NCBI GenBank assembly: GCA_902779765.1
Contig: CACZCQ010000006.1
Location: 1 to 64,000, forward strand
DNA length: 64,000 bases
Origin: an uncultured Bacteroidia bacterium
GTDB lineage: Bacteria; Bacteroidota; Bacteroidia; Bacteroidales; UBA932
Reading direction: 5' to 3'
Shown here in pieces: positions 4,615 to 28,545 of this stretch (position 1 is its first letter; each line of letters begins with the position of its first letter). The position numbers and the translations under genes are program-made. The notes under the pieces are model-generated. The model saw only the letters and a program-made list of their open reading frames with translations, did no database searches and was not told the DNA's origin.

Positions 4615-4642
4615 GATTTGCCTATTTAAATCGCTGATTTAG

Positions 4643-4715
4643 AGCCACTTAACAGACTTGAACTGTTGACCTGCGCGTTACGAATGCGCTGCTCTACCGA
4701 CTGAGCTAAAGTGGC
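4643..4715 (-). tRNA. tRNA-Thr (anticodon CGU)
   Basis: The minus strand folds into a standard 73-nt cloverleaf: acceptor GCCACTT/AAGTGGC, D-arm GCTC-AGTCGGTA-GAGC, anticodon loop TTCGTAA, T-arm AACAG-TTCAAGT-CTGTT, discriminator U. The CCA end is not encoded. The bottom pair of the anticodon stem is an A-C mismatch. The 3' half faces the integrase gene, which makes it the likely attachment site. I saw no second copy of the 3' end in the window, so the far attachment site must be to the left. Confidence 0.93.
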
Positions 4716-4743
4716 CTGCTGCATTTCTCGTGGAAATGGACTG

Positions 4744-14620: not shown

Positions 14621-17041
14621 ATGGAATTTAATGAGAAAGCGATTTTCGAGGGGCTGAACGCGGAGCAGGAAAAAGCCGTCAACAGCATCACCGGACCGGT
14701 ACTGATCGTCGCCGGAGCGGGTTCAGGAAAAACCAGGGTGTTGACGAGCAGGATCGCCTGTATCCTGGCCAGGGGAGGGGATCCTTCCCGGATCATGGCA
14801 TTGACTTTCACGAAGAAGGCGGCCAACGAGATGAAGGAGAGGATCGCCCTGATGGTAGGCAGGAGGAATTCCTGGAGACTCCAGATGGGAACGTTCCATT
14901 CGGTCTTCGTGAGATTCCTTCGGGAATATGCCGCCTCGATCGGGTATCCCGCTACTTTCACGATATACGATACAAGCGATTCGACCAGCGCCGTCAAGGC
15001 CTGCATCAAGGAACTCCAGCTGGATGACAAGGTCTACAAGCCCAGGGACGTCCTGTCAAGGATATCCCTTGCCAAGAATAACCTGGTGACGGCTCAGGCG
15101 TACAGGAACAACGTACAGGCCGTCCAGAAAGATACCGCCGCGAGGAAGCCCAGGATCTGCGACATCTATTCCCTGTATGCTGCCAAATGCAGGCAGTCGG
15201 GCGTGATGGATTTCGACGATATCCTCCTGAATATGAACATACTTCTGAGGGACAATGCCGAAGCCCTGCAGGATATCGCCTCCAGGTTCGATTATGTCCT
15301 TGTGGATGAGTACCAGGATACAAATTACGCGCAGTACGTGATCCTCAGGAGGCTGTGTGAAAACCACAGGAATATCTGTGTCGTCGGGGACGACTCGCAG
15401 TCCATCTATGCTTTCCGCGGAGCCAGGATCGAGAATATCCTGAATTTCAAGAAAGACTATCCTGACTGCCAGCTGTTCCGCCTGGAACGGAACTATCGTT
15501 CCACATCCAATATAGTCAATGCCGCCAATTCATTGATATCCAAGAATGAGGATAGGATCCCGAAGACTTGCGTGGCGGTGGCCGGCGAAGGTGAGAAGAT
15601 CAGTCTGGTGAAGAGCTACAATGACCAGGAAGAGGCCATAAGGATCGCTTCCGAGATCATCTCCAGGATGCAGACAGACCACGCAAGGTATCAGGATTTC
15701 GCCGTACTGTACCGGACGAATTCCCAGTCGAGGGCCATTGAAGAGGCCTTGAGGAAGAGGAACCTGCCATACGTCATCTATTCGGGCAACTCCTTCTTTG
15801 AACGTGCCGAGGTCAAGGACATGATGGCATACCTGAAACTGGCCGTGAATGTCAATGACGACGAGTCTTTCAAGAGGGTCGTTAACATGCCCGCAAGAGG
15901 AATCGGCGACACTTCCCTCGGCGCCCTGGCAGCAATGGCGCGTTCCAAGGGCATCTCCCTGTTCAAGGCGGCATACCAGCCGGACTTCGCCGATTTCGGA
16001 CTGAAGGCTCCGGCCGTGGCCAGGATCCGTTCATTCTGCGAGATGATTTCCGACCATGCATCCAGGGCAGCCGTCACGGATGCCCATGAGCTTGCCGTCA
16101 GTCTTTCCGATGCCTGCGGTCTCCTTGCCCATTTCAGGGCGGATACATCGATAGAAGGCCAGTCCAGGGCATCCAACGTCGAGGAATTGTTGAACAGCAT
16201 ATCCCAGTTCGTGGAGGAGCGTAGGGATGAGTATCTTCAGGAGCTTCTGGCGGACAGGATGGTGGAGGATGTGACCGATGTCGAATACCCTGTGGTCACT
16301 GTCGGTGAGTTCCTGGAGAACGTATCCCTGCTGACTAATGTGGACTTTGAGGAAGAGGAGGATTCCAACAACAAGATAGCCCTTATGACCGTCCATTCTG
16401 CGAAGGGTCTCGAATTCCCTTATGTCATAGTCGCCGGATTGGAAGAAAACCTCTTTCCGTCATCGGGGATGCTGGCATCGAAGGCTGAAATTGAGGAGGA
16501 GAGGAGGCTGTTCTATGTGGCGATCACGAGAGCCAAGAAGGCTGTATGCCTGTCCTTCGCCAGCAACAGGATGCGTAACGGGAAATATGAATCGAATTCT
16601 CCGAGCCGTTTCATAAGGGAGATAGACCAGCGTTACATCTCCAACCCTCTCCAGGACGAAGACAAGGACGGACGTGACGATGATGACTTCGGATTCGGCA
16701 GGGGATTCCGGGGCTTCGGATCCGGCCGCGGCACGAAGCCTTCGGGAATCAGGTTCGGGATGTCTACCGGTGGGGTGAAATATTTCCCGGGTCAGAAACC
16801 GAAGGATGCGGTAGAGTCTTTGAAAAACCGTCCCCTCCCTCCGAAGATACCGGATTCAGAATTCATCCCGGTGCCGATGACCGAACTCAGGACCGGACAG
16901 AGGATCGAGCACAACCGTTTCGGTTTCGGCAAGATACTGGAGATAACGGGAAATGTCCCCGACCTGAAGGCGAAGGTGGTTTTCGACGACTATGGAGAGA
17001 AAATATTATTGCTTAAATATGCAAAAATTCGCTTGGAATAA
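14621..17041 (+). CDS. UvrD/PcrA-type superfamily 1 DNA helicase
   Basis: An 806-residue 3'-5' helicase with all SF1A motifs: Walker A VAGAGSGKTRVL, Walker B VDEYQDTNYAQY, motif III VVGDDSQSIYAFRGA, motif IV LERNYRS, motif V MTVHSAKGLEFPYV and motif VI FYVAITRAKKAV. A glycine-rich linker precedes a C-terminal Tudor-like tail (GQRIEHNRFGFGKILEI) of the kind that contacts RNA polymerase in PcrA. It acts in DNA repair and replication. ATG 14621 is the start; upstream in-frame codons would overlap the nqr promoter. The his leader begins 27 nt downstream. Confidence 0.95.
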   Translation: MEFNEKAIFEGLNAEQEKAVNSITGPVLIVAGAGSGKTRVLTSRIACILARGGDPSRIMALTFTKKAANEMKERIALMVGRRNSWRLQMGTFHSVFVRFLREYAASIGYPATFTIYDTSDSTSAVKACIKELQLDDKVYKPRDVLSRISLAKNNLVTAQAYRNNVQAVQKDTAARKPRICDIYSLYAAKCRQSGVMDFDDILLNMNILLRDNAEALQDIASRFDYVLVDEYQDTNYAQYVILRRLCENHRNICVVGDDSQSIYAFRGARIENILNFKKDYPDCQLFRLERNYRSTSNIVNAANSLISKNEDRIPKTCVAVAGEGEKISLVKSYNDQEEAIRIASEIISRMQTDHARYQDFAVLYRTNSQSRAIEEALRKRNLPYVIYSGNSFFERAEVKDMMAYLKLAVNVNDDESFKRVVNMPARGIGDTSLGALAAMARSKGISLFKAAYQPDFADFGLKAPAVARIRSFCEMISDHASRAAVTDAHELAVSLSDACGLLAHFRADTSIEGQSRASNVEELLNSISQFVEERRDEYLQELLADRMVEDVTDVEYPVVTVGEFLENVSLLTNVDFEEEEDSNNKIALMTVHSAKGLEFPYVIVAGLEENLFPSSGMLASKAEIEEERRLFYVAITRAKKAVCLSFASNRMRNGKYESNSPSRFIREIDQRYISNPLQDEDKDGRDDDDFGFGRGFRGFGSGRGTKPSGIRFGMSTGGVKYFPGQKPKDAVESLKNRPLPPKIPDSEFIPVPMTELRTGQRIEHNRFGFGKILEITGNVPDLKAKVVFDDYGEKILLLKYAKIRLE

Positions 17042-17067
17042 ATAAATAATCGTATATTGCGGAAGAA

Positions 17068-17124
17068 ATGTACTTGAACGCATCTCATAAGCATCATCAT
17101 TCCCGGGCTGTACAGGTCTGGTAA
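17068..17124 (+). CDS. hisL: Histidine operon leader peptide
   Basis: An 18-codon open frame, MYLNASHKHHHSRAVQVW, with four His codons within five (17086-17100). It lies directly upstream of a terminator and hisG. A histidine run in a short leader ORF is the hallmark of ribosome-mediated attenuation of his operons. TATATTG at 17053-17059 is a near match to the -7 consensus and would give a leader of only a few nucleotides before the ATG. The stop codon lies inside the 5' arm of the predicted antiterminator. The gene is too short for routine gene callers. Confidence 0.85.
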   Translation: MYLNASHKHHHSRAVQVW

Positions 17125-17191
17125 GTGATGGTGTAATAAATAGTTTAGTTGTATTACATCGGCTTGCCGGACAGGGCAGGCCGATTTTTTT
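17116..17191 (+). promoter_or_regulatory. his attenuator: mutually exclusive antiterminator and terminator
   Basis: Terminator: ATCGGCTTGCC (17158-17168) pairs with GGCAGGCCGAT (17175-17185; one G-U), followed by seven Ts to 17191. Antiterminator: GTCTGGTAAG (17116-17125) can pair over 10 positions, two of them G-U, with CTTGCCGGAC (17163-17172), which overlaps the terminator's 5' arm. A 7-bp hairpin, TGTAATA/TATTACA (17132-17138/17152-17158), fits inside the antiterminator. A ribosome stalled at the His codons would leave 17116-17125 free, so hisG would be read. A ribosome reaching the UAA at 17122 would cover it, so the terminator would form. Confidence 0.82.
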
Positions 17192-17202: not shown

Positions 17203-18054
17203 ATGATAAGATTTGCGGTTCAATCAAAGGGAAGACTTAATGAGGAGAGCCTGAAACTGCTTAAGGATTCCGGTATCGATGTGGATGATACCAAGAGGAA
17301 ATTCATTGGGAAGGCCTCGGATTTCCCTCTGGAACTTCTTTATCTGAGGGATGATGACATACCGGGAGTCGTGGCCGGAGGATCGGCCGATATCGGAATA
17401 GTCGGTTTCAATGAAATCGCCGAATCCGGAGCCGATGTGAATGTGGTCAGGAGGCTTGGGTTCGGCAAGTGCCGGTTGTCCCTGGCCATTCCCAAGAATG
17501 CGGATTATAATGGGCTGGAATGGTTTGAAGGTCGTTCCATCGCCACATCCTATCCATCCATCCTGCGGCGTTTCCTGCAAGGGAAGGGGATATCGTCCTC
17601 TGTACGTGAGATCCGGGGTTCGGTGGAGATCGCTCCGGCGGCCGGGATAGCGGATTCGATTTTCGATATCGTATCGTCGGGAGGGACCCTGGTCTCGAAC
17701 GGCCTGAAGGAGGTCGAGTCAGTCCTGGAAAGCGAGGCCGTACTGATCTGCAGGAAGGATCTTCCGGAGGACCTTAAGCCGGTACTGGATTCCATCCTCT
17801 TCCGTTTCGATGCCGTGCAGGAGAGCCGGGGCAAGAAAAATGTCCTTATGAATATTCCCACAGGAAGGCTTTCCGAGGCCATGTCGTTGCTGCCATCCAT
17901 GCGCAGTCCTACAGTGATGCCCCTTGCCATCGAGGGTTGGAGTTCCATCCATACAGTGGTGGATGACTCCACTCTGTGGGAAACGGTGGAAAGACTCAAA
18001 CGCATCGGAGCCGAAGGCATCCTTATCCTGAACGTTGATAAAGTAATTGATTGA
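17203..18054 (+). CDS. hisG: ATP phosphoribosyltransferase, long form
   Basis: 283 residues; catalyses the first step of histidine synthesis (ATP + PRPP). It has a periplasmic-binding-like catalytic core (IRFAVQSKGRL at the start, GGSADIGIVGFNEIAE near 70, and the PRPP-binding region ending IVSSGGTLVSNGL near 165) and a C-terminal ACT-like regulatory domain of about 75 residues (NIPTGRL to the end), so it is the long, histidine-inhibited form that works without HisZ. I start at ATG 17203, 12 nt past the attenuator U-tract. Confidence 0.96.
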   Translation: MIRFAVQSKGRLNEESLKLLKDSGIDVDDTKRKFIGKASDFPLELLYLRDDDIPGVVAGGSADIGIVGFNEIAESGADVNVVRRLGFGKCRLSLAIPKNADYNGLEWFEGRSIATSYPSILRRFLQGKGISSSVREIRGSVEIAPAAGIADSIFDIVSSGGTLVSNGLKEVESVLESEAVLICRKDLPEDLKPVLDSILFRFDAVQESRGKKNVLMNIPTGRLSEAMSLLPSMRSPTVMPLAIEGWSSIHTVVDDSTLWETVERLKRIGAEGILILNVDKVID

Positions 18055-18056
18055 CC

Positions 18057-19343
18057 ATGAGATTATTCATAGAACCGGACAGGGCCCTTTGGCCCTTTAT
18101 CGCCAGACGGGTGAACCGCGATGACTCGGAGTTGAACTGGCGGGTGGCAGATATCATGAAGCAGGTGGAAGAAGGAGGGGATGCCGCACTCAACAAGCTA
18201 ATAATGGAAATCGAAGGCGCAGTCCCCGGAAAGCTCAAGGTGACTCCGGAGGAATTCGAGGCAGCCGCTGACAACCTTCCGGACGAACTGAAGGAAGCTA
18301 TCCAGGATGCGGCTTCCAGGATCAGGGCGTTCCACGAAAAGCAACTCCCGGGTGAAACCAGTTGGGATGATGGTAACGGAATAGTCTGCCGCAGGAGATT
18401 CCTGCCGATCCGGAGGGTGGGTCTCTACATTCCGGGAGGCACCGCCCCTCTGTTATCGACGGTCCTGATGCTGGGAGTTCCTTCCGGAATCGCCGGCTGT
18501 CCGGAGAGGATAATATGTACTCCTCCATATAAAGATGGCAGCGTGGCTCCGGCAATCCTGTATACTGCCCGGTTGTGCGGGATTACTGATGTTTTCAAGG
18601 TAGGAGGTGCCCAGGCGGTCGCAGCCATGGCCTACGGTACGGGAACGATCGCAAAGGTCGACAAGATATTCGGCCCGGGTAACCGTTATGTGCTGAAGGC
18701 AAAGAAGCTGGCCAGCCGCGAGGGAACTGCCGTGGACATGCCTGCTGGTCCTTCTGAAGTTATGGTCATCGCAGACGATACCGCCGACGCGAGGTTCGTC
18801 GCCTCAGACCTTCTCTCGCAGGCGGAGCATGGGACTGACAGCCAGGTTATCCTGGTATGCCGCAACCTTCGGTTCGCCAATGCGGTCCAGGAGGAGATCA
18901 GGAGGCAGAAGGCGCTCCTGCCTAGGGAGAACACCATCGATGCGGCGTTGAAAGACAGCCGGATAGTAGTCATGGAAAACCCGGATGAGCAGATCGAGCT
19001 CGCTGATTTCTATGCTCCTGAACACCTGATCCTGGCAGTACGGGATCCTGAGCTTGCCGCCAGCAAGGTCACTGCCGCAGGCAGCATATTCCTGGGCAAT
19101 TATGCACCGGAGAGTGCCGGAGATTATGCCAGCGGCACCAACCATATCCTTCCGACGATGGGATCGGCAGGAGTGTGGAGCGGCCTCGGGGTGGAGAATT
19201 TCATGCATGCGATCACATATCAGTCCATATCACCGGAAGGCCTGTCTCGCATCGGAAAGACCGTCATCACGATGGCTGAAGCCGAGGGACTTGAGGCACA
19301 CGCCAATGCCGTACGTCTGAGATTGGAAGAAAAAGCGGAATAG
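18057..19343 (+). CDS. hisD: Histidinol dehydrogenase
   Basis: 428 residues; a Zn-dependent enzyme performing the last two NAD+-dependent oxidations, histidinol to histidine. Family blocks are PGGTAPLLSTVLMLGVPS near 125, VGGAQAVAAMAYGTGT near 185, FGPGNRYVLKAK, DMPAGPSEVMVIAD and LSQAEHGTDSQ (metal-binding Gln and His), and the C-terminal VENFMHAITYQ with SPEGL. It starts at ATG 18057, 2 nt after hisG stops; a TTG two codons upstream is less likely. Confidence 0.96.
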   Translation: MRLFIEPDRALWPFIARRVNRDDSELNWRVADIMKQVEEGGDAALNKLIMEIEGAVPGKLKVTPEEFEAAADNLPDELKEAIQDAASRIRAFHEKQLPGETSWDDGNGIVCRRRFLPIRRVGLYIPGGTAPLLSTVLMLGVPSGIAGCPERIICTPPYKDGSVAPAILYTARLCGITDVFKVGGAQAVAAMAYGTGTIAKVDKIFGPGNRYVLKAKKLASREGTAVDMPAGPSEVMVIADDTADARFVASDLLSQAEHGTDSQVILVCRNLRFANAVQEEIRRQKALLPRENTIDAALKDSRIVVMENPDEQIELADFYAPEHLILAVRDPELAASKVTAAGSIFLGNYAPESAGDYASGTNHILPTMGSAGVWSGLGVENFMHAITYQSISPEGLSRIGKTVITMAEAEGLEAHANAVRLRLEEKAE

Positions 19344-19345
19344 CC

Positions 19346-21028
19346 ATGGTAATCAAAGATATAGTCAGTCTTGTCCGGGAGAACGTCCTGGATATGGAAC
19401 CCTACTCCACCGCCAGGGATGAGTACAGGGGAGAATTGGGGATCCTGCTCGACGCCAACGAAAACCCTTTCGGCGAGGACGGCCTGAACAGGTATCCTTC
19501 CAGGAACCTTAGAAGCGCCCTGGCCGGACGTATAGCCGAAATCAAGAAGATGCCGGAAGAGTGCCTTTTCCTGGGCAACGGCAGCGATGAATCTATCGAC
19601 CTGTGCTACAGGGTGTTCTGCCGTCCCGGAGTGGACAACGCCGTGATGATCTCTCCAAGTTACGGAATGTACGCGGTCTGCGCGGACATGAACGGGGTTC
19701 AAAGGCGGCAGGTACTGCTTGAGGAAGATTTCTCCCTCCCTGTCGAAAGGCTGCTGGGGGCGGCTGACGGGTTCACAAAGCTCATGTTCATCTGCTCGCC
19801 AAACAATCCTACCGGCAACGCCTTCCCCGAGAAGGACATCAGGAGACTGCTGGAAGGATTCCGTGGAATGGTCGTACTGGATGAAGCCTACGTCGATTTC
19901 AACGAGGCGGGATCCCTGTCCGGGCTGATAGGGGAATATCCCAACCTGATCGTGCTCCAGACCTTGTCCAAGGCCTATGGCCTGGCCGGGTTGCGGGTCG
20001 GGATCAGCATTGCCGTTCCCTTTGTCACCGCTCTTTTCGACAAGGTCCGTTACCCGTACAACGTGGGTACCGACACCCTGAGGCTTGCCCTGGATATGCT
20101 CGACCCTGTCCGGAAGGAAACCGAGGTCGCCATGATACTCGGAGAAAGACGCCGGTTGGCTTCGAGGCTTTCAGGCATCCCATGCATAACCAAGGTGTTT
20201 CCGAGCGAAGCCAATTTCCTGTTGGTAAGGACAAATGATCCCAAGGGCCTGTATTCCTACCTTCTCGACGAGGGAATAATCGTCAGGGACAGGACGTCGG
20301 CACCGGGTTGCGGCAACGCGCTCAGGTTGACGGTCGGTACCCCGGAAGAGAATGACAGGCTGATCGATGCGGTCGACAGGTTCAGCAATCTGTCCGGCCA
20401 GCCTTCAGTAGTTTCATTCTCAAGTGGCGGGGATGCTGCCGCCGAAGACGGGAGAACCGCATCGGTGGAAAGGAACACCAGGGAAACGAGGATAAAGGTT
20501 GAGGTCGATCTGGACGGAAGGACCGGATCATACATCAGCACGGGGCTCAAGTTTTTCGACCATATGCTGGACCAGTTGCCCTGCCACGGCGGAATCTCTC
20601 TCAGGATCCAGGCTGAAGGCGACCTTGCTGTCGACGAGCACCATACTATGGAGGATGTGGCCATTTCGCTGGGCGAAGCTCTCCTGTCTGCGCTTGGGGA
20701 CAGGAAAGGAATCAACCGTTATGGATTCGTCCTGCCGATGGACGAATGCGATGCCATGGTACTCATGGACCTTGGAGGCAGGTTCGATTTCAAATGGGAT
20801 GTGCCGTTCACGAGGGAATATGTCGGTGATACGCCGACCGAGATGTTCAAGCATTTCTTCCATTCCCTGTGCTGTGCACTCAAGTGCAACCTGCACATAC
20901 AGGCCAGGGGAGAGAACAACCACCATCTTGCTGAAGCCGTATTCAAGGCATTTGCAAGGACGCTCAGGGCGGCGGTCCGCCGCGATCCTTTCAGTTTCGA
21001 TGTACCCAGCAGCAAGGGAGTCCTATGA
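19346..21028 (+). CDS. hisC-hisB: HisC-HisB fusion: histidinol-phosphate aminotransferase + imidazoleglycerol-phosphate dehydratase
   Basis: A single uninterrupted 560-residue frame. Residues 1 to about 350 are a PLP aminotransferase: LDANENPFG at the start, CSPNNPTGN, VVLDEAYVDF, and the PLP lysine in LSKAYGLAGLRVG near Lys209. A Ser/Ala/Gly-rich linker follows (about 352-374). Residues 375-560 are a full HisB dehydratase with both metal motifs (DEHHTMEDV and ENNHHLAEAVFKA) and the ending PSSKGVL. Many Bacteroidota instead fuse the dehydratase to a HAD histidinol-phosphatase; that domain is absent here. It is coupled to hisH by an ATGA overlap. Confidence 0.93.
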   Translation: MVIKDIVSLVRENVLDMEPYSTARDEYRGELGILLDANENPFGEDGLNRYPSRNLRSALAGRIAEIKKMPEECLFLGNGSDESIDLCYRVFCRPGVDNAVMISPSYGMYAVCADMNGVQRRQVLLEEDFSLPVERLLGAADGFTKLMFICSPNNPTGNAFPEKDIRRLLEGFRGMVVLDEAYVDFNEAGSLSGLIGEYPNLIVLQTLSKAYGLAGLRVGISIAVPFVTALFDKVRYPYNVGTDTLRLALDMLDPVRKETEVAMILGERRRLASRLSGIPCITKVFPSEANFLLVRTNDPKGLYSYLLDEGIIVRDRTSAPGCGNALRLTVGTPEENDRLIDAVDRFSNLSGQPSVVSFSSGGDAAAEDGRTASVERNTRETRIKVEVDLDGRTGSYISTGLKFFDHMLDQLPCHGGISLRIQAEGDLAVDEHHTMEDVAISLGEALLSALGDRKGINRYGFVLPMDECDAMVLMDLGGRFDFKWDVPFTREYVGDTPTEMFKHFFHSLCCALKCNLHIQARGENNHHLAEAVFKAFARTLRAAVRRDPFSFDVPSSKGVL

Positions 21029-21615
21029 TAGCGATAGTAGATTATGACGCCGGCAACGTCCGTTCGGTTATCAACGCCCTGCGGCGTAACGGGGTTACGG
21101 AGTGGAACCTTACTTCTGACGCCGCCGAGCTGATGTCGGCTGACAAGGTCCTCCTGCCGGGAGTCGGGGACGCGTCGGTCGCTGTTGAAAGCCTCAGGTC
21201 TAAAGGGCTTGATTCAGTGATACTTTCCCTGAAATGCCCTGTACTCGGTATCTGTGTCGGGATGCAGCTCATGTGCCGTCACAGCGAGGAAGGCGATGCG
21301 GAAGGCCTGGGCATATTCGATGCGGAAGTCCGCCGGTTCAGGAGAACCGACCCTGAATATAAGATCCCCCACATGGGTTGGAATTCAGTCCGCAACTTGA
21401 AAACCGGGCTCTTTGACGGTATTCAGGAAGGTACGGACCTCTATTTTGTTCATTCTTTCTATGCAGGCCTGTGCAGTTCGACGATCGCAACCACGGACCA
21501 TATGGTGACATTCAGCGCGGCACTTTGCAGGGACAACTTTTTCGGGACGCAGTTCCATCCGGAAAAAAGCGGACCTGACGGAGCGCGCATAATCCGAAAT
21601 TTCCTTTCACTATGA
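21025..21615 (+). CDS. hisH: Imidazole glycerol phosphate synthase, glutaminase subunit
   Basis: A 196-residue class I glutamine amidotransferase that feeds ammonia to HisF. The nucleophile is Cys77 in LGICVGMQLM; the catalytic His-x-Glu is in TQFHPEKSG near the C-terminus; the oxyanion strand is LLPGVGDAS. It overlaps the upstream stop and the downstream hisA start by ATGA junctions, implying coupled translation and balanced production with HisF. Confidence 0.95.
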   Translation: MIAIVDYDAGNVRSVINALRRNGVTEWNLTSDAAELMSADKVLLPGVGDASVAVESLRSKGLDSVILSLKCPVLGICVGMQLMCRHSEEGDAEGLGIFDAEVRRFRRTDPEYKIPHMGWNSVRNLKTGLFDGIQEGTDLYFVHSFYAGLCSSTIATTDHMVTFSAALCRDNFFGTQFHPEKSGPDGARIIRNFLSL

Positions 21616-22325
21616 TACAGGTCATACCAGCCATAGATTTGATCGGCGGCCGTTGCGTACGGCTCTCCCAGGGCGATTTCAACCGGGAGACATGTTATGA
21701 TTCGAGCCCTGAAAGGATGGCTCTGTCATTCCTTGCAAATGGCCTGAAGTCAGTCCACGTCGTGGACCTTGACGGGGCCAGGCTTGGAGCTCCTGCCAAT
21801 CTGGATGTCCTGAAAAGGCTGTCGAGGATCGAAGGGCTTGAAATAGAATGGGGCGGAGGGATCAAAGGACGTGAAGACGTCTGCTCGGTCCTTGAGACCG
21901 GGGCATCCCGGGTGATATGCGGGACGATGGCCGTCCGCGATCCGCTGTTGTTCAAAGGCTTGCTTGAAGAATTCGGACCGGACAGGATAGTCCTGGGAGC
22001 AGATGTAAGGGGCCGGGAAGTAGCCGTGAATGGATGGACGGAAGGTTCCGGGATGGATATCAACGCCCTTATAAGCTCATTCCTCCCTTCCTTGAAAGAA
22101 GTGATAGTCACTGAGATATCCAGGGATGGGATGCTTTGCGGGACGGAGCTCGGCCTGTATATGGACCTCATGTCCGCTTTTCCGGGCATTTCCCTGACTG
22201 CAAGCGGAGGTGTGGGCAGCATGGAGGACATCCGCGCCCTAGCTGCTGCCGGAGTCCCGAAAGTGATAGTGGGGAAGGCCCTGTATGAGGGCAGGATCAA
22301 ACTGGAGGAGATAGCCCTATGGTAA
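21612..22325 (+). CDS. hisA: ProFAR isomerase
   Basis: A 237-residue TIM barrel catalysing the Amadori rearrangement of ProFAR to PRFAR. The general base Asp is in IPAIDLIGGRCVRL (about residue 9) and the second catalytic Asp in LGADVRG; phosphate-binding loops are WGGGIKG and TASGGVGSMED. It overlaps hisF by 7 nt. Confidence 0.95.
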   Translation: MIQVIPAIDLIGGRCVRLSQGDFNRETCYDSSPERMALSFLANGLKSVHVVDLDGARLGAPANLDVLKRLSRIEGLEIEWGGGIKGREDVCSVLETGASRVICGTMAVRDPLLFKGLLEEFGPDRIVLGADVRGREVAVNGWTEGSGMDINALISSFLPSLKEVIVTEISRDGMLCGTELGLYMDLMSAFPGISLTASGGVGSMEDIRALAAAGVPKVIVGKALYEGRIKLEEIALW

Positions 22326-23074
22326 AGAAGAGGATCATTCCGTGCCTGGATGTCAAGGACGGCAGGACGGTAAAGGGAATCAATTTCCTGGGACTCAAGG
22401 ATGTGGGCGATGCCGTCGAACTGGGTGCCAGGTATGCGGCGGAAGGAGCGGACGAACTAGTCTACCTCGATATAAGCGCCACCCAGGAAGGACGCAGTAC
22501 ATTCGTCGGTCTCGTAAGCGCCATCTCTGAAAGGATCGATATCCCGTTCACCGTCGGTGGAGGAATATCGTCCCTGCAGGATGCCGGCCGGCTGCTTGAG
22601 GCCGGAGCTGACAAGATTACCGTCAACAGCGCGGCCCTGCGCAATCCCGGACTTGTGAGCGACATAGCATACCATTTCGGGAGCCAGTTCGTAGTAGTGG
22701 CGATAGATGCGCGTAACGAGGACGGCAGGTGGATGGCGATGGCCGGGGGAGGACGAATAAGCACGGGGAAGGAATTGTTCAGTTGGTCTCAGGAAGTGCA
22801 GGAGCGTGGTGCGGGGGAGATACTCTTCACCTCCATGGATCATGACGGGACCAAGAACGGGTATCCCTGCGACGTGTTCGCTGCCCTTTGCAGCAGTCTC
22901 TCCATCCCTGTGATAGCTTCCGGTGGAGCCGGAAGCGCGGAAGACATTGCTGAGGTACTTACTGCGGGAAAGGCTGACGCCGCCCTGGCCGCCAGTATTT
23001 TCCACTACGGGGAAACCACCATACCAGAGATCAAAAGATACCTCTCTGACAGGGGAATAGAAGTAAGATTATAA
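22319..23074 (+). CDS. hisF: Imidazole glycerol phosphate synthase, cyclase subunit
   Basis: A 251-residue TIM barrel forming imidazole-glycerol phosphate and AICAR from PRFAR and ammonia. The catalytic Asp residues are in IIPCLDVKDGRTVKG (about 11) and VVAIDARNE (about 130); phosphate loops are TVGGGISS and IASGGAGSAED. It ends 11 nt before hisIE. Confidence 0.96.
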   Translation: MVKKRIIPCLDVKDGRTVKGINFLGLKDVGDAVELGARYAAEGADELVYLDISATQEGRSTFVGLVSAISERIDIPFTVGGGISSLQDAGRLLEAGADKITVNSAALRNPGLVSDIAYHFGSQFVVVAIDARNEDGRWMAMAGGGRISTGKELFSWSQEVQERGAGEILFTSMDHDGTKNGYPCDVFAALCSSLSIPVIASGGAGSAEDIAEVLTAGKADAALAASIFHYGETTIPEIKRYLSDRGIEVRL

Positions 23075-23085
23075 TATTCAACGAT

Positions 23086-23688
23086 ATGGAAAAGATTGAA
23101 CTAGATTTCAGGAAGAACACGGACGGGCTGGTTCCGGTGATAATCCAGGACAGCGCTACTAGGAAAGTCCTTATGCTGGGATACATGAATGAAGAGGCAT
23201 TCGGGAAGACCTGTGAAAGCGGACTGGTGACATTCTGGAGCCGTTCCAGGAAGGCACTGTGGACGAAAGGTGAAAGCAGCGGAAATTATCTGCACGTAGA
23301 AAAGATTTACGCGGACTGCGATGCCGATACCTTGCTGATTACCGCGCGCCCTGACGGTCCTACATGCCACCGCGGGACGGTCTCCTGCTTCGATACTCCT
23401 CCGGAAGAAGGTTTCCTGGGACGTCTCGAGAGGGTCATTTCAAGCCGGCACTCCGAGATGCCGCAGGGACATTATACCACCCGCCTGTTCAACGAGGGAA
23501 CCGGAAAGATCGCCCAGAAAGTTGGAGAGGAGGCCGTGGAGACCATCCTTGAGGCGGCTGCCGGAAATGTGGAAAGGTATATATATGAAGCGTCGGACCT
23601 GCTGTATCATCTGCTTGTGCTCAACGAACAGATGGGAGTGAAAATGTCGGACCTTGAGGGAGAATTATTGTCAAGAAGCAGACCTTGA
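23086..23688 (+). CDS. hisIE: Bifunctional phosphoribosyl-AMP cyclohydrolase / phosphoribosyl-ATP pyrophosphatase
   Basis: 200 residues. The N-terminal HisI cyclohydrolase (about 1-110) shows the family block LMLGYMNEEAF, FWSRSRKALWTKGESSGN, and the metal site DCDADTLL with downstream Cys and His (PTCHRG). The C-terminal HisE domain (about 112-200) has the MazG-like signature KVGEEAVETILEA. It is the last gene of the his operon, followed by only a weak AT-rich hairpin. With it every his step has a gene here except histidinol phosphatase. Confidence 0.96.
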   Translation: MEKIELDFRKNTDGLVPVIIQDSATRKVLMLGYMNEEAFGKTCESGLVTFWSRSRKALWTKGESSGNYLHVEKIYADCDADTLLITARPDGPTCHRGTVSCFDTPPEEGFLGRLERVISSRHSEMPQGHYTTRLFNEGTGKIAQKVGEEAVETILEAAAGNVERYIYEASDLLYHLLVLNEQMGVKMSDLEGELLSRSRP

Positions 23689-26256: not shown

Positions 26257-28545
26257 ATGAAAAGCAAAATCAATCTGATCGCCGTAATCCTCATCGGAAC
26301 GGCAATGGCGGCAGCCTGCAACACTCTGGAAGTGACCATGCCAAAGGGACCGCAGGGAGAACAGGGCGTCCAGGGAGTATCCGGGAAAGACGGTCTTTCT
26401 GCCTATGAGATCTGGGTGGAGTCCATCAAGGACAAAACCGTATCTGATTGGTCAGGAGGTACTTCCGTAACCGATTTCTTCAAGTATCTGAAAGGGAAGG
26501 ACGGGGCGGACGGCAAGGACGGTGCCGACGGAAAGAACGGCAAGACGGCTTATGAACTCTGGATCGAATATGTGGCCTCCGGAGTGGAGGACCCCAAGAA
26601 TCCCGGATCCCAGTGGGACAGGACCAGGATCACGGAGAAGGACTTCTATGAATTCCTTTCAGGGAATGACGGTGACAACGGAAGCACCCCGTACATCGGA
26701 ACCGACGGTAACTGGTGGATCGTGGTGGACGGAAAGCCAAAGGACCTAGGTGTACCTGCAAGGGGACCGAAAGGAGACAAAGGGGATGAAGGTGTATCCG
26801 GGAAGGATGGTTCGGACGGCCAGTCCGGGGACAGTCCTGTGATCGGTGAGAACGGCAACTGGTGGATAGGCTCGGTGGATACCGGTGTGCCGGCAAAGGG
26901 CGAGAAAGGTGACCAGGGTGATTCGGGAGCCGATGGCCATGACGGATCGGAAGGCCTTTCCGCCTATGAACTCTGGGTCGCTGACGTGACTTCGGAAAAC
27001 GGACTCCCGAACCCGGGAAACGGGGTATATGATCCCGATGAATACCCGACATGGCCCAAGGATGCAACTTCGGTGGAGGACTTTTACCGGTATCTCTCCG
27101 GCAGGGACGGAAAGGATGGCAAGGATGGAGAGAGTGCCGAAGATGACAGCCAGGATAAATCCTATGATGAAAGGGTTGACGGGACGAAGTACAATGTGGC
27201 TCCGGTACTTGCCGTGAGCAGGTCGTCGGAAGGAACCGTTTCGTATGAATATGTGAACCCGTTTTCGGGAGGAGCGGCCTTCATCGTGACAGGTCCGGGC
27301 CCGGTCATAATACCCGGCTGCGAAGTAGTGTTCACGACTATGGACGGGAGCCGGACCTACACCAAAACCTCCGATGCTTCCGGGTATGTATACCTCTCAC
27401 GTTCCGAGCTTCCGGACTGGTATGACGGAGCTCCTTCTGCCTCAGACGATCCGGCGGACATATCTTCGGGGGTGAAACCTTTGTCATTCTCTTTCGGAGG
27501 GAAGACTGTCGATGACGCGGCAAGCATCGCGTCGACATGCAAGGTCCCGTATAAGGTCGGTCTCAAGATGGATCTGATCGGAGGTTCGCTCAAGGCGGGA
27601 AGGTCTCTGGCCAGATATGAAGTGAGGAGGATTGTCGAAGGAGTTTTGGAAGAGGAGTGCTTCATATCCAGCAGCCCTCGCGGCCTGGTGGATGACTACC
27701 GTGGCTGCGGGTACCTTCACAAGGTTTCTTCATCATACGGATATTACCGCAACGAAGGAACTGTCCGGTCCATCCGGGAGATGTATTCTGAAGCCGGGGA
27801 GATCATCAGTACGGCCCCTCCGGTATCGTCAAGTGACGAAGAGCTGCTCGGCTTTTTCAGTACTATCTCCAACCTTACCGACGGAGAAGTGCCCGGATGC
27901 CAGCGGGCAGTAGGCAAGGAATCCTTTTTCTCACCTGCATTCGGAGACGGCGCGGATCCTTCCGGGATCAAGGTCGACGATCCTTTCGTATACATCAACA
28001 AGGGTACGCTTACAGTCCGCAGATACCGTCCGGATTACGGCCTTTCCATATCGGATCCCGGGCGGCGTATACATGTGCCTTACGTGGCACAGCTCCCGGA
28101 CGGGATACTGAATTCCTCCTATGTATGGAAAAGCGGCCATACGACACTTACATTCGAGCTGGACTGGAACGGAATAGGGGAGATGAAGGTAGTAGACGGT
28201 TACAGCGGCGGTTGGAAAGATGATACGTATGGATACTCATACGGAAGGTTCGAGGGCCTATCCAGCAGGCCGGGTTCCGTCTTTTCAGCCTTTTCGGCCA
28301 AGGGGAAGTTCAACGGGTCCGTAATCGACTCGAAGGTTACGGTAAGCTGGAGGAAACCGGTGGTGTTCACGGACATCTATGATGCGTTTTCAGTTGCGAT
28401 AGCCGATGTCGGTGATGACTTCCTCCTGTTCAAGGGATTGAGCGGGAAATTCAGCTACGATGCATCCGGGGATGACGAAGAAGGCAACGGAAAGGCCTAT
28501 ATGTTCGGCAAGGAAATCCCTAAATCGTTGGAAACATCGGACTGA
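26257..28545 (+). CDS. Collagen-like repeat surface lipoprotein
   Basis: 762 residues. The signal peptide ends with lipobox MAAAC (Cys21). Residues 31-297 alternate five Gly-X-Y collagen-like tracts (about 31-46, 80-96, 170-192, 215-234, 282-291) with two kinds of module: three 'SAYELW' modules of about 35-50 residues ending in FYxYLSGxDG, and two 'NWWI' modules (TPYIGTDGNWWIVVDG and SPVIGENGNWWIGSVD). The rest, about 300-762, is probably beta-rich and contains a 'SGYVYLSRSELPDWYDG' stretch; I do not recognise its family. It probably forms a trimeric stalk-like surface protein. It ends the cluster. Confidence 0.8.
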   Translation: MKSKINLIAVILIGTAMAAACNTLEVTMPKGPQGEQGVQGVSGKDGLSAYEIWVESIKDKTVSDWSGGTSVTDFFKYLKGKDGADGKDGADGKNGKTAYELWIEYVASGVEDPKNPGSQWDRTRITEKDFYEFLSGNDGDNGSTPYIGTDGNWWIVVDGKPKDLGVPARGPKGDKGDEGVSGKDGSDGQSGDSPVIGENGNWWIGSVDTGVPAKGEKGDQGDSGADGHDGSEGLSAYELWVADVTSENGLPNPGNGVYDPDEYPTWPKDATSVEDFYRYLSGRDGKDGKDGESAEDDSQDKSYDERVDGTKYNVAPVLAVSRSSEGTVSYEYVNPFSGGAAFIVTGPGPVIIPGCEVVFTTMDGSRTYTKTSDASGYVYLSRSELPDWYDGAPSASDDPADISSGVKPLSFSFGGKTVDDAASIASTCKVPYKVGLKMDLIGGSLKAGRSLARYEVRRIVEGVLEEECFISSSPRGLVDDYRGCGYLHKVSSSYGYYRNEGTVRSIREMYSEAGEIISTAPPVSSSDEELLGFFSTISNLTDGEVPGCQRAVGKESFFSPAFGDGADPSGIKVDDPFVYINKGTLTVRRYRPDYGLSISDPGRRIHVPYVAQLPDGILNSSYVWKSGHTTLTFELDWNGIGEMKVVDGYSGGWKDDTYGYSYGRFEGLSSRPGSVFSAFSAKGKFNGSVIDSKVTVSWRKPVVFTDIYDAFSVAIADVGDDFLLFKGLSGKFSYDASGDDEEGNGKAYMFGKEIPKSLETSD

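Follow-up and report, generated by a model that had tools for sequence, protein, structure and literature searches.

The window, that is, the whole stretch of 64,000 nucleotides that was analysed, comes from a rumen bacterium of the order Bacteroidales, and it contains a complete his operon directly 3' of a short histidine-rich leader, as identified from NCBIfam matches. The upstream neighbour of the leader is an ORF for a PcrA/UvrD-type helicase, which ends at 17041 and whose best match, TIGR01073, is under the cut-off. Within the operon, hisC is fused to the imidazoleglycerol-phosphate dehydratase part of hisB in a single 560-codon ORF (window 19346-21028). The features of the locus are the following:

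17053-17059, + strand: promoter -7-like box TATATTG, one base short of TAnnTTTG and 8 nt 5' of the leader ATG
17068-17124, + strand: His leader ORF of 18 codons plus TAA, with 4 His codons (sequence read, leader scan)
17091-17109, + strand: segment 1, the His-codon arm of the 1:2 hairpin (RNAfold)
17115-17134, + strand: 3' partner of the 1:2 hairpin, overlapping segment 2 (RNAfold)
17116-17126, + strand: segment 2, the antiterminator 5' arm, including the leader stop codon (sequence, arm tests, covariation)
17130-17138, + strand: inner hairpin of the antiterminator, 5' arm (4 of 9 pairs changed on both sides in 13 sequences)
17152-17160, + strand: inner hairpin of the antiterminator, 3' arm (same 13-sequence covariation test)
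17158-17168, + strand: terminator 5' arm (RNAfold, terminator covariation test)
17162-17172, + strand: segment 3, the antiterminator 3' arm, shared in part with the terminator 5' arm and loop (arm tests, covariation)
17175-17191, + strand: segment 4, the terminator 3' arm (to 17185) and the T-run (17185-17191) (sequence)
17203-18054, + strand: hisG, the first operon gene (TIGR00070, E 5.8e-56; TIGR03455, E 1.5e-25)
18057-23688, + strand: hisD, fused hisC-hisB, hisH, hisA, hisF and hisIE (NCBIfam matches, ORFs)

The leader ORF at 17068-17124, MYLNASHKHHHSRAVQVW, starts with the ATG at 17068-17070 and stops with the TAA at 17122-17124. Its His codons are found at 17086-17088, 17092-17094, 17095-17097 and 17098-17100. 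A previous reading of this DNA, made from the sequence only, had described a His run at 17086-17100; the four His codons are indeed present there, but a Lys codon at 17089-17091 interrupts them. The antiterminator arms that it proposed, GTCTGGTAAG (17116-17125) and CTTGCCGGAC (17163-17172), match exactly with 10 pairs, and the helix is longer by one further pair, 17126-17162. The placement of the leader UAA (17122-17124) inside the antiterminator 5' arm is likewise real, as read from the sequence. The hairpin enclosed by these arms, given as 7 bp at 17132-17158, does exist, but nine bases can pair (17130-17138 with 17152-17160). Similarly, the arms of the terminator, 17158-17168 and 17175-17185, are exact, but only six of the seven Ts assigned to it are free, because the stem ends with the first T of the run 17185-17191. 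RNAfold gives in addition a third helix that was not listed in the sequence-only reading, namely 17091-17109 with 17115-17134, in which the His codons pair with the region around and after the stop codon.

The 156-nt leader region has a folding z-score of -4.58, and none of 200 shuffles is as stable. Three states were calculated. In the free window RNA, with no ribosome, the 1:2 hairpin and the terminator are formed, with a calculated energy of -46.5. Masking the leader as far as 17110, corresponding to a ribosome stalled at His, gives a calculated energy of -26.9 for the antiterminator, as compared to -25.1 for the forced terminator. With the RNA masked to 17134, corresponding to a ribosome at the stop codon, the terminator forms at a calculated energy of -21.2. 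It should be noted that the gap in the stalled state is only 1.8 kcal/mol, and the preference for the antiterminator relies on the order of synthesis. As far as such calculations go, the energies and the geometry fit ribosome control in all three states.

Next, we consider the relatives. The hisG loci were taken from near relatives (a match in 54 of 101 genomes), from contigs of named genomes, from the phylum and from the family, and up to 450 nt upstream of hisG were scanned for reading frames of 8-45 codons that start with ATG and in which some stretch of eight codons holds three or more His. The 221 upstream regions are a fetched subset (for example, 88 of the 137 phylum-set relatives with a match), and four of them are shorter than 450 nt. 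A His-rich leader is found in 153 of the 221 regions, as compared to 3 of 221 when the reverse strand is scanned. A variant of the scan, with an ATG or GTG start and a limit of 265 nt, finds a leader in 166 of 221. For other residues, the same scan yields 82 forward and 67 reverse hits for Leu, 64 and 57 for Ile, and 9 and 95 for Met; the reverse-strand excess of Met is expected, since a run of CAT codons gives ATG when read from the opposite strand.

With identical rows merged, there are 152 distinct leaders at a distance of at most 265 nt from hisG, and 117 of these mix CAT and CAC codons, which shows that the His run is not a simple repeat. Four loci, at contig ends or leaderless, were re-anchored (L102, L108, L111, L121), and for L093 and L176 the script picked a second short ORF rather than the obvious leader. 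Near-identical rows were kept, such as L039/L040 and L011/L012, and some genomes are present in two collections (L008/L042, L010/L045). Since rows are related and some are near-identical, the permutation counts given below are not independent probabilities.

Conservation of the His codons in close relatives had been proposed as a check of the device, and it is borne out, with a leader in 22 of the 26 hisG loci fetched from the same genus (L007-L032) and none in the remaining four (L013, L021, L023, L024). The leader scan found no leader at the named Bacteroidaceae, Prevotellaceae and Muribaculaceae loci L048, L050, L051, L054 and L058, and there are lineages with a distant HisG that are without leader, e.g. 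family f56 (0 of 7). The absence from such loci and lineages may be the reason why the leader has been unnoticed in Bacteroides. At L132, L136, L140 and L070, two consecutive His-rich short ORFs are located upstream of one hisG and are possibly tandem attenuators.

The terminator, defined as a hairpin with a T-run at -8 kcal/mol or better, is present at 135 of the 152 distinct leaders, as compared to 19 of 456 shuffled spacers, and at 135 of 140 when families f62 and f42 are set aside. The shuffled-spacer control was used here instead of a swap test of the terminator arms (25.6 vs 13.3), which is circular, the arms having been chosen as paired, and which is given zero weight. The arm tests on the antiterminator were made with n=131. 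The 21 of 152 leaders without a separate strong terminator were excluded from them, including L008, L041 and L043, for which the script mistook the antiterminator for the terminator. For each leader, the antiterminator helix was taken as the best pairing of the terminator 5' arm with the sequence surrounding the leader stop. The arms score 18.0 with their own partners and 14.0 with swapped ones (0 of 5000 permutations), and the corresponding values within the same genus (n=34) are 20.0 and 17.3 (again 0 of 5000). Arms that differ from each other and yet pair include GGTAAG/CTTGCC, GATAAGGC/GCCTTATC, GGACAGG/CCTGTCC, GCATTGA/TCAATGC and CTCAAGCG/CGTTTGAG.

Covariation had been anticipated in both stems, and this turned out to hold for one of them. 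Among 13 close sequences, 5 pairs of the antiterminator and its inner hairpin have both partners changed, and 0 of 500 shuffles reach the covariation score, but the terminator has zero two-sided changes in 13 close sequences, window included. For the 1:2 helix, 85.9% of the cells are paired in 13 sequences including the window, with covariation not above that of shuffles; its swap test gives 16.2 vs 14.5 (0 of 5000 permutations, 131 rows), but the result within the genus, 429 of 5000, is not clear. Taken together, these comparisons indicate that the leader, its terminator and its antiterminator are not due to chance, and that the device is common across the phylum, being carried by many Bacteroidota relatives.

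The distance from the start of the last His codon to the antiterminator arm has a median of 16 nt, with quartiles at 14-18 (n=108, as 23 of the 131 with a helix score below 15 were dropped). The footprint of a ribosome stalled at a His codon reaches about this far. The spacing is within 10-22 nt in 87% of the cases, while for shuffled partners this figure is 36%, with quartiles at 9-26; the full range is -3 to 43 nt, and 7 of 108 are outside 9-40. The narrow spacing suggests that leading ribosomes track the polymerase closely, in a phylum that is described as being without Shine-Dalgarno sequences. The same 108 confident helices (of 131) fall into three classes: 38 have the stop codon inside the arm, 46 have an arm confined to the coding end of the leader, and in 24 the entire arm follows the stop. 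The stop-in-arm arrangement of the window is thus, judging from the alignments, one form of a broader rule, namely that a ribosome at the stop codon would cover the arm. In family f45 (L082, L085, L088, L089, L094, L096, L097, L169, L175, L177), the C-terminus of the leader peptide is a recurring Gln-Ala stretch. The DNA of this stretch (CTCAAGCG or similar) is the antiterminator arm, with CGTTTGAG as its partner, and the peptide motif therefore looks like an RNA constraint.

The ORF, the arms, the conservation, the covariation of the antiterminator, the codon-to-arm spacing and the operon can all be read from the DNA itself. The leader conservation, the antiterminator covariation, the geometry and the calculated energies lend support to the classical attenuation scheme that had been suggested for this locus. 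We consider it very probable (roughly 93%) that the leader of the his operon is a ribosome-mediated transcription attenuator, set by the supply of charged histidyl-tRNA. For the events in the cell, we infer a promoter and start site, translation of the leader, termination and a response to histidine, as follows. The promoter would be located directly 5' of the leader ORF. When histidine is plentiful, the ribosome would get to the UAA and mask segment 2, allowing segments 3 and 4 to pair, and this pairing would make RNA polymerase halt at the T-run, upstream of hisG. When histidine is scarce, the ribosome would stall on the His codons and mask segment 1, leaving segment 2 free to capture segment 3 before segment 4 is synthesized; no terminator would then form, and hisG would be transcribed. 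In an untranslated leader, finally, the 1:2 hairpin would hide segment 2, leading to termination by default.

It is also conceivable that the hairpin does no more than terminate the pcrA-like helicase gene on its 5' side, the ORF of which stops at 17041, some 116 nt short of the hairpin, and that the His ORF and the antiterminator are coincidental. However, the leader and the terminator precede hisG in many families, the antiterminator pairing covaries, and chance His runs are rare (3 of 221), and the probability of such a coincidence is accordingly only a few percent. Even less probable is that a T-box (a tRNA-binding element) or some other riboswitch senses histidine without translation. A T-box-like element has been proposed for the his genes of C. 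glutamicum, with doubts expressed in the review that reports it (PMC3896937). Against this option, a scan of the window with all 4227 Rfam families returned at the gathering score only two tRNAs, both elsewhere, with no leader family and no match to the T-box models, and an Rfam scan of 18 stretches from relatives returned no match; 0 T-boxes are given for 7 Bacteroidetes/Chlorobi genomes in the relevant passage of PMC2494555. A ribosome is instead indicated by the conservation of His codons within a reading frame and by the narrow range of distances from codon to arm.

Another option is that the leader acts mainly via translation or Rho access and not via an intrinsic terminator. Family f62, in which leaders are found in 15 of 15 fetched loci and the terminator is mostly absent, speaks in its favour. 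A strong terminator is, however, present in the window and at 135 of 152 leaders (135 of 140 outside f62 and f42), and the terminator 5' arm of the window is the very partner of the antiterminator. We regard this option too as very unlikely, if slightly less so than the helicase terminator, and retain the ribosome-mediated attenuator as the preferred interpretation.

The f62 loci (L182, L183, L185, L186, L188-L192, L194-L198, L204) belong to the same phylum but not to the same class, and their leaders have an ATG or GTG start. Among the 7 loci scored, there is no hairpin with a T-run between the leader and hisG, and in the last 150 nt 12 of the 15 are without one, while the other 3 score -12.3, -5.9 and -3.7. 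The stretch to the hisG match (first hisG codons included) has a G fraction of 0.06-0.12 and a C fraction of 0.21-0.29, to be compared with medians of 0.16 for G and 0.12 for C outside the terminator at the other leaders. A hairpin is found within the His run in about half of the family. As a lead only, f62 apparently keeps His leaders without terminators, and its attenuation may be of the Rho type or translational.

We now come to the start of the transcript. The -7 consensus in Bacteroides and Flavobacterium is TAnnTTTG (PMC7366714, PMC9723704). The window has zero exact -7 boxes, and in the close relatives a similar box, one base shorter, is found 6-9 nt before the ATG. An exact TAnnTTTG ending at most 25 nt from the leader ATG is present at 72 of the 152 leaders, compared to about 1.9 expected. 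The exact boxes form mainly two groups, one of 20 located 4-10 nt before the ATG and one of 53 located 16-27 nt before it, and 8 of the 15 f62 loci have an exact box 3-6 nt upstream of a start codon. Transcription usually starts a few bases after the -7 box, and with such a start the leader RNA would be nearly without an untranslated start. For the window, a near-leaderless start is plausible, the evidence for it being the one promoter-like box that is one base short. In B. thetaiotaomicron about 3.7% of the 5' UTRs are reported to be shorter than 10 nt (PMC7366714), and in F. psychrophilum 5.5% of the messages are reported as leaderless (PMC9723704); from these figures, near-leaderless messages are rare in the phylum.

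There is also a more far-reaching reading, which we hold tentatively and at somewhat less than even odds. According to it, His attenuation would be ancestral in Bacteroidota and have a design of its own. The transcript would start at the leader start codon, or a few bases from it, in many lineages, giving immediate ribosome loading without a Shine-Dalgarno sequence, and the antiterminator arm would lie within the last codons and the stop, so that RNA pairing dictates the end of the peptide. In f62 the terminator would have been lost, the G-poor and C-richer stretch suggesting a Rho-type or translational output.

A covariance model (R1) was built from 13 sequences including the window; its RNAalifold structure mixes conformers, and it was used for site finding only. 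A search with a new model of this kind had been proposed in the sequence-only reading, and it does retrieve further sites. In the window's own genome it gives one site (150 of 754 first-look candidates scored), and in the genus 26 places in 25 of 151 genomes at E <=0.001, with stricter filters that lose weak matches. Among the 14 of these 26 places that were examined, 11 are directly before genes reading as hisG (the family model having been applied to that of L236 only), and the other three are a place before a short hisG-like remnant, a Thr leader and L241, the last being without a leader and probably a chance match. The Thr-rich leader (L242, G012:C75:4800-6600) has eight consecutive Thr codons and a hairpin with a T-run directly before homoserine kinase, in the layout of the His leader. 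The codon run changes here with the pathway, as attenuation predicts. Two copies of the His leader are present within 1.6 kb at L236 (G407:C1:110100-113500), one before a full-length hisG and the other before the 35-codon hisG-like remnant; the gene after this remnant has PDZ/protease-type matches that are weak and do not reach the cut-off.

Sister attenuators were also searched for in the window's own genome with thrB, leuA and trpE models; none is over the cut-off, thrB and leuA being weak below it. A scan of the window for a leader plus terminator gave the weak candidates 19863-19928, 28125-28223 and 4626-4724, none of them convincing; the first of these is within hisC-hisB, and the last overlaps a tRNA gene.

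The kind of device is already known, and there is precedent for it in the phylum. Amino-acid attenuators, with Bacteroidetes/Chlorobi included, are said to have been predicted by Vitreschak (2004) and Lopatovskaya (2010). A search with the Rfam His_leader family (RF00514), suggested as a further check, came out negative, with no match at the gathering score in the window and none for the leader region at E values of up to 10; over the whole genome there are six sub-threshold matches (best E 0.36), all away from the leader. The Bacteroid-trp motif (RF01692) is a Trp leader, and a search for it found nothing in the window's own genome at E values of up to 1 and nothing in the window at the gathering score. 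This motif is described as a putative cis-regulatory RNA of Bacteroidetes (PMC2864571). Small ORFs of B. thetaiotaomicron have been noted as reminiscent of leader peptides (PMC7366714).

Closer to the present case, PMC9723704 (2021) presents strong indications of attenuation by leader peptides in front of amino-acid operons in Flavobacterium psychrophilum, and a structured hisG 5' element that is conserved in Flavobacteriaceae and has no Rfam hit. This element shares the gene and the phylum with ours and belongs to another order. His attenuators had been thought to be little described in Bacteroidales; this stands in so far as the precedent is from another order, but the same phylum has already been covered (PMC9723704). 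The comparison is made by description, and what is added here is a rumen member of the Bacteroidales and the anatomy at the level of the arms.

The enteric hisL attenuator (RF00514) shares with the present leader the His-rich ORF, the terminator, the competing antiterminator and the logic (PMC3896937). It has seven consecutive His codons, whereas here there are four with one interruption, and in contrast to hisL the antiterminator arm sits here at the end of the leader, with the stop codon included. The locus thus offers a fully drawn histidine attenuator in Bacteroidales, of a type that appears to be widespread in the phylum and for which no Rfam family covering the leader was found; a covariance model built from the present alignments could improve annotation. 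What is new relative to the descriptions found is the broad spread over the phylum, as indicated by the upstream regions, together with the location of the antiterminator arm at the end of the leader.
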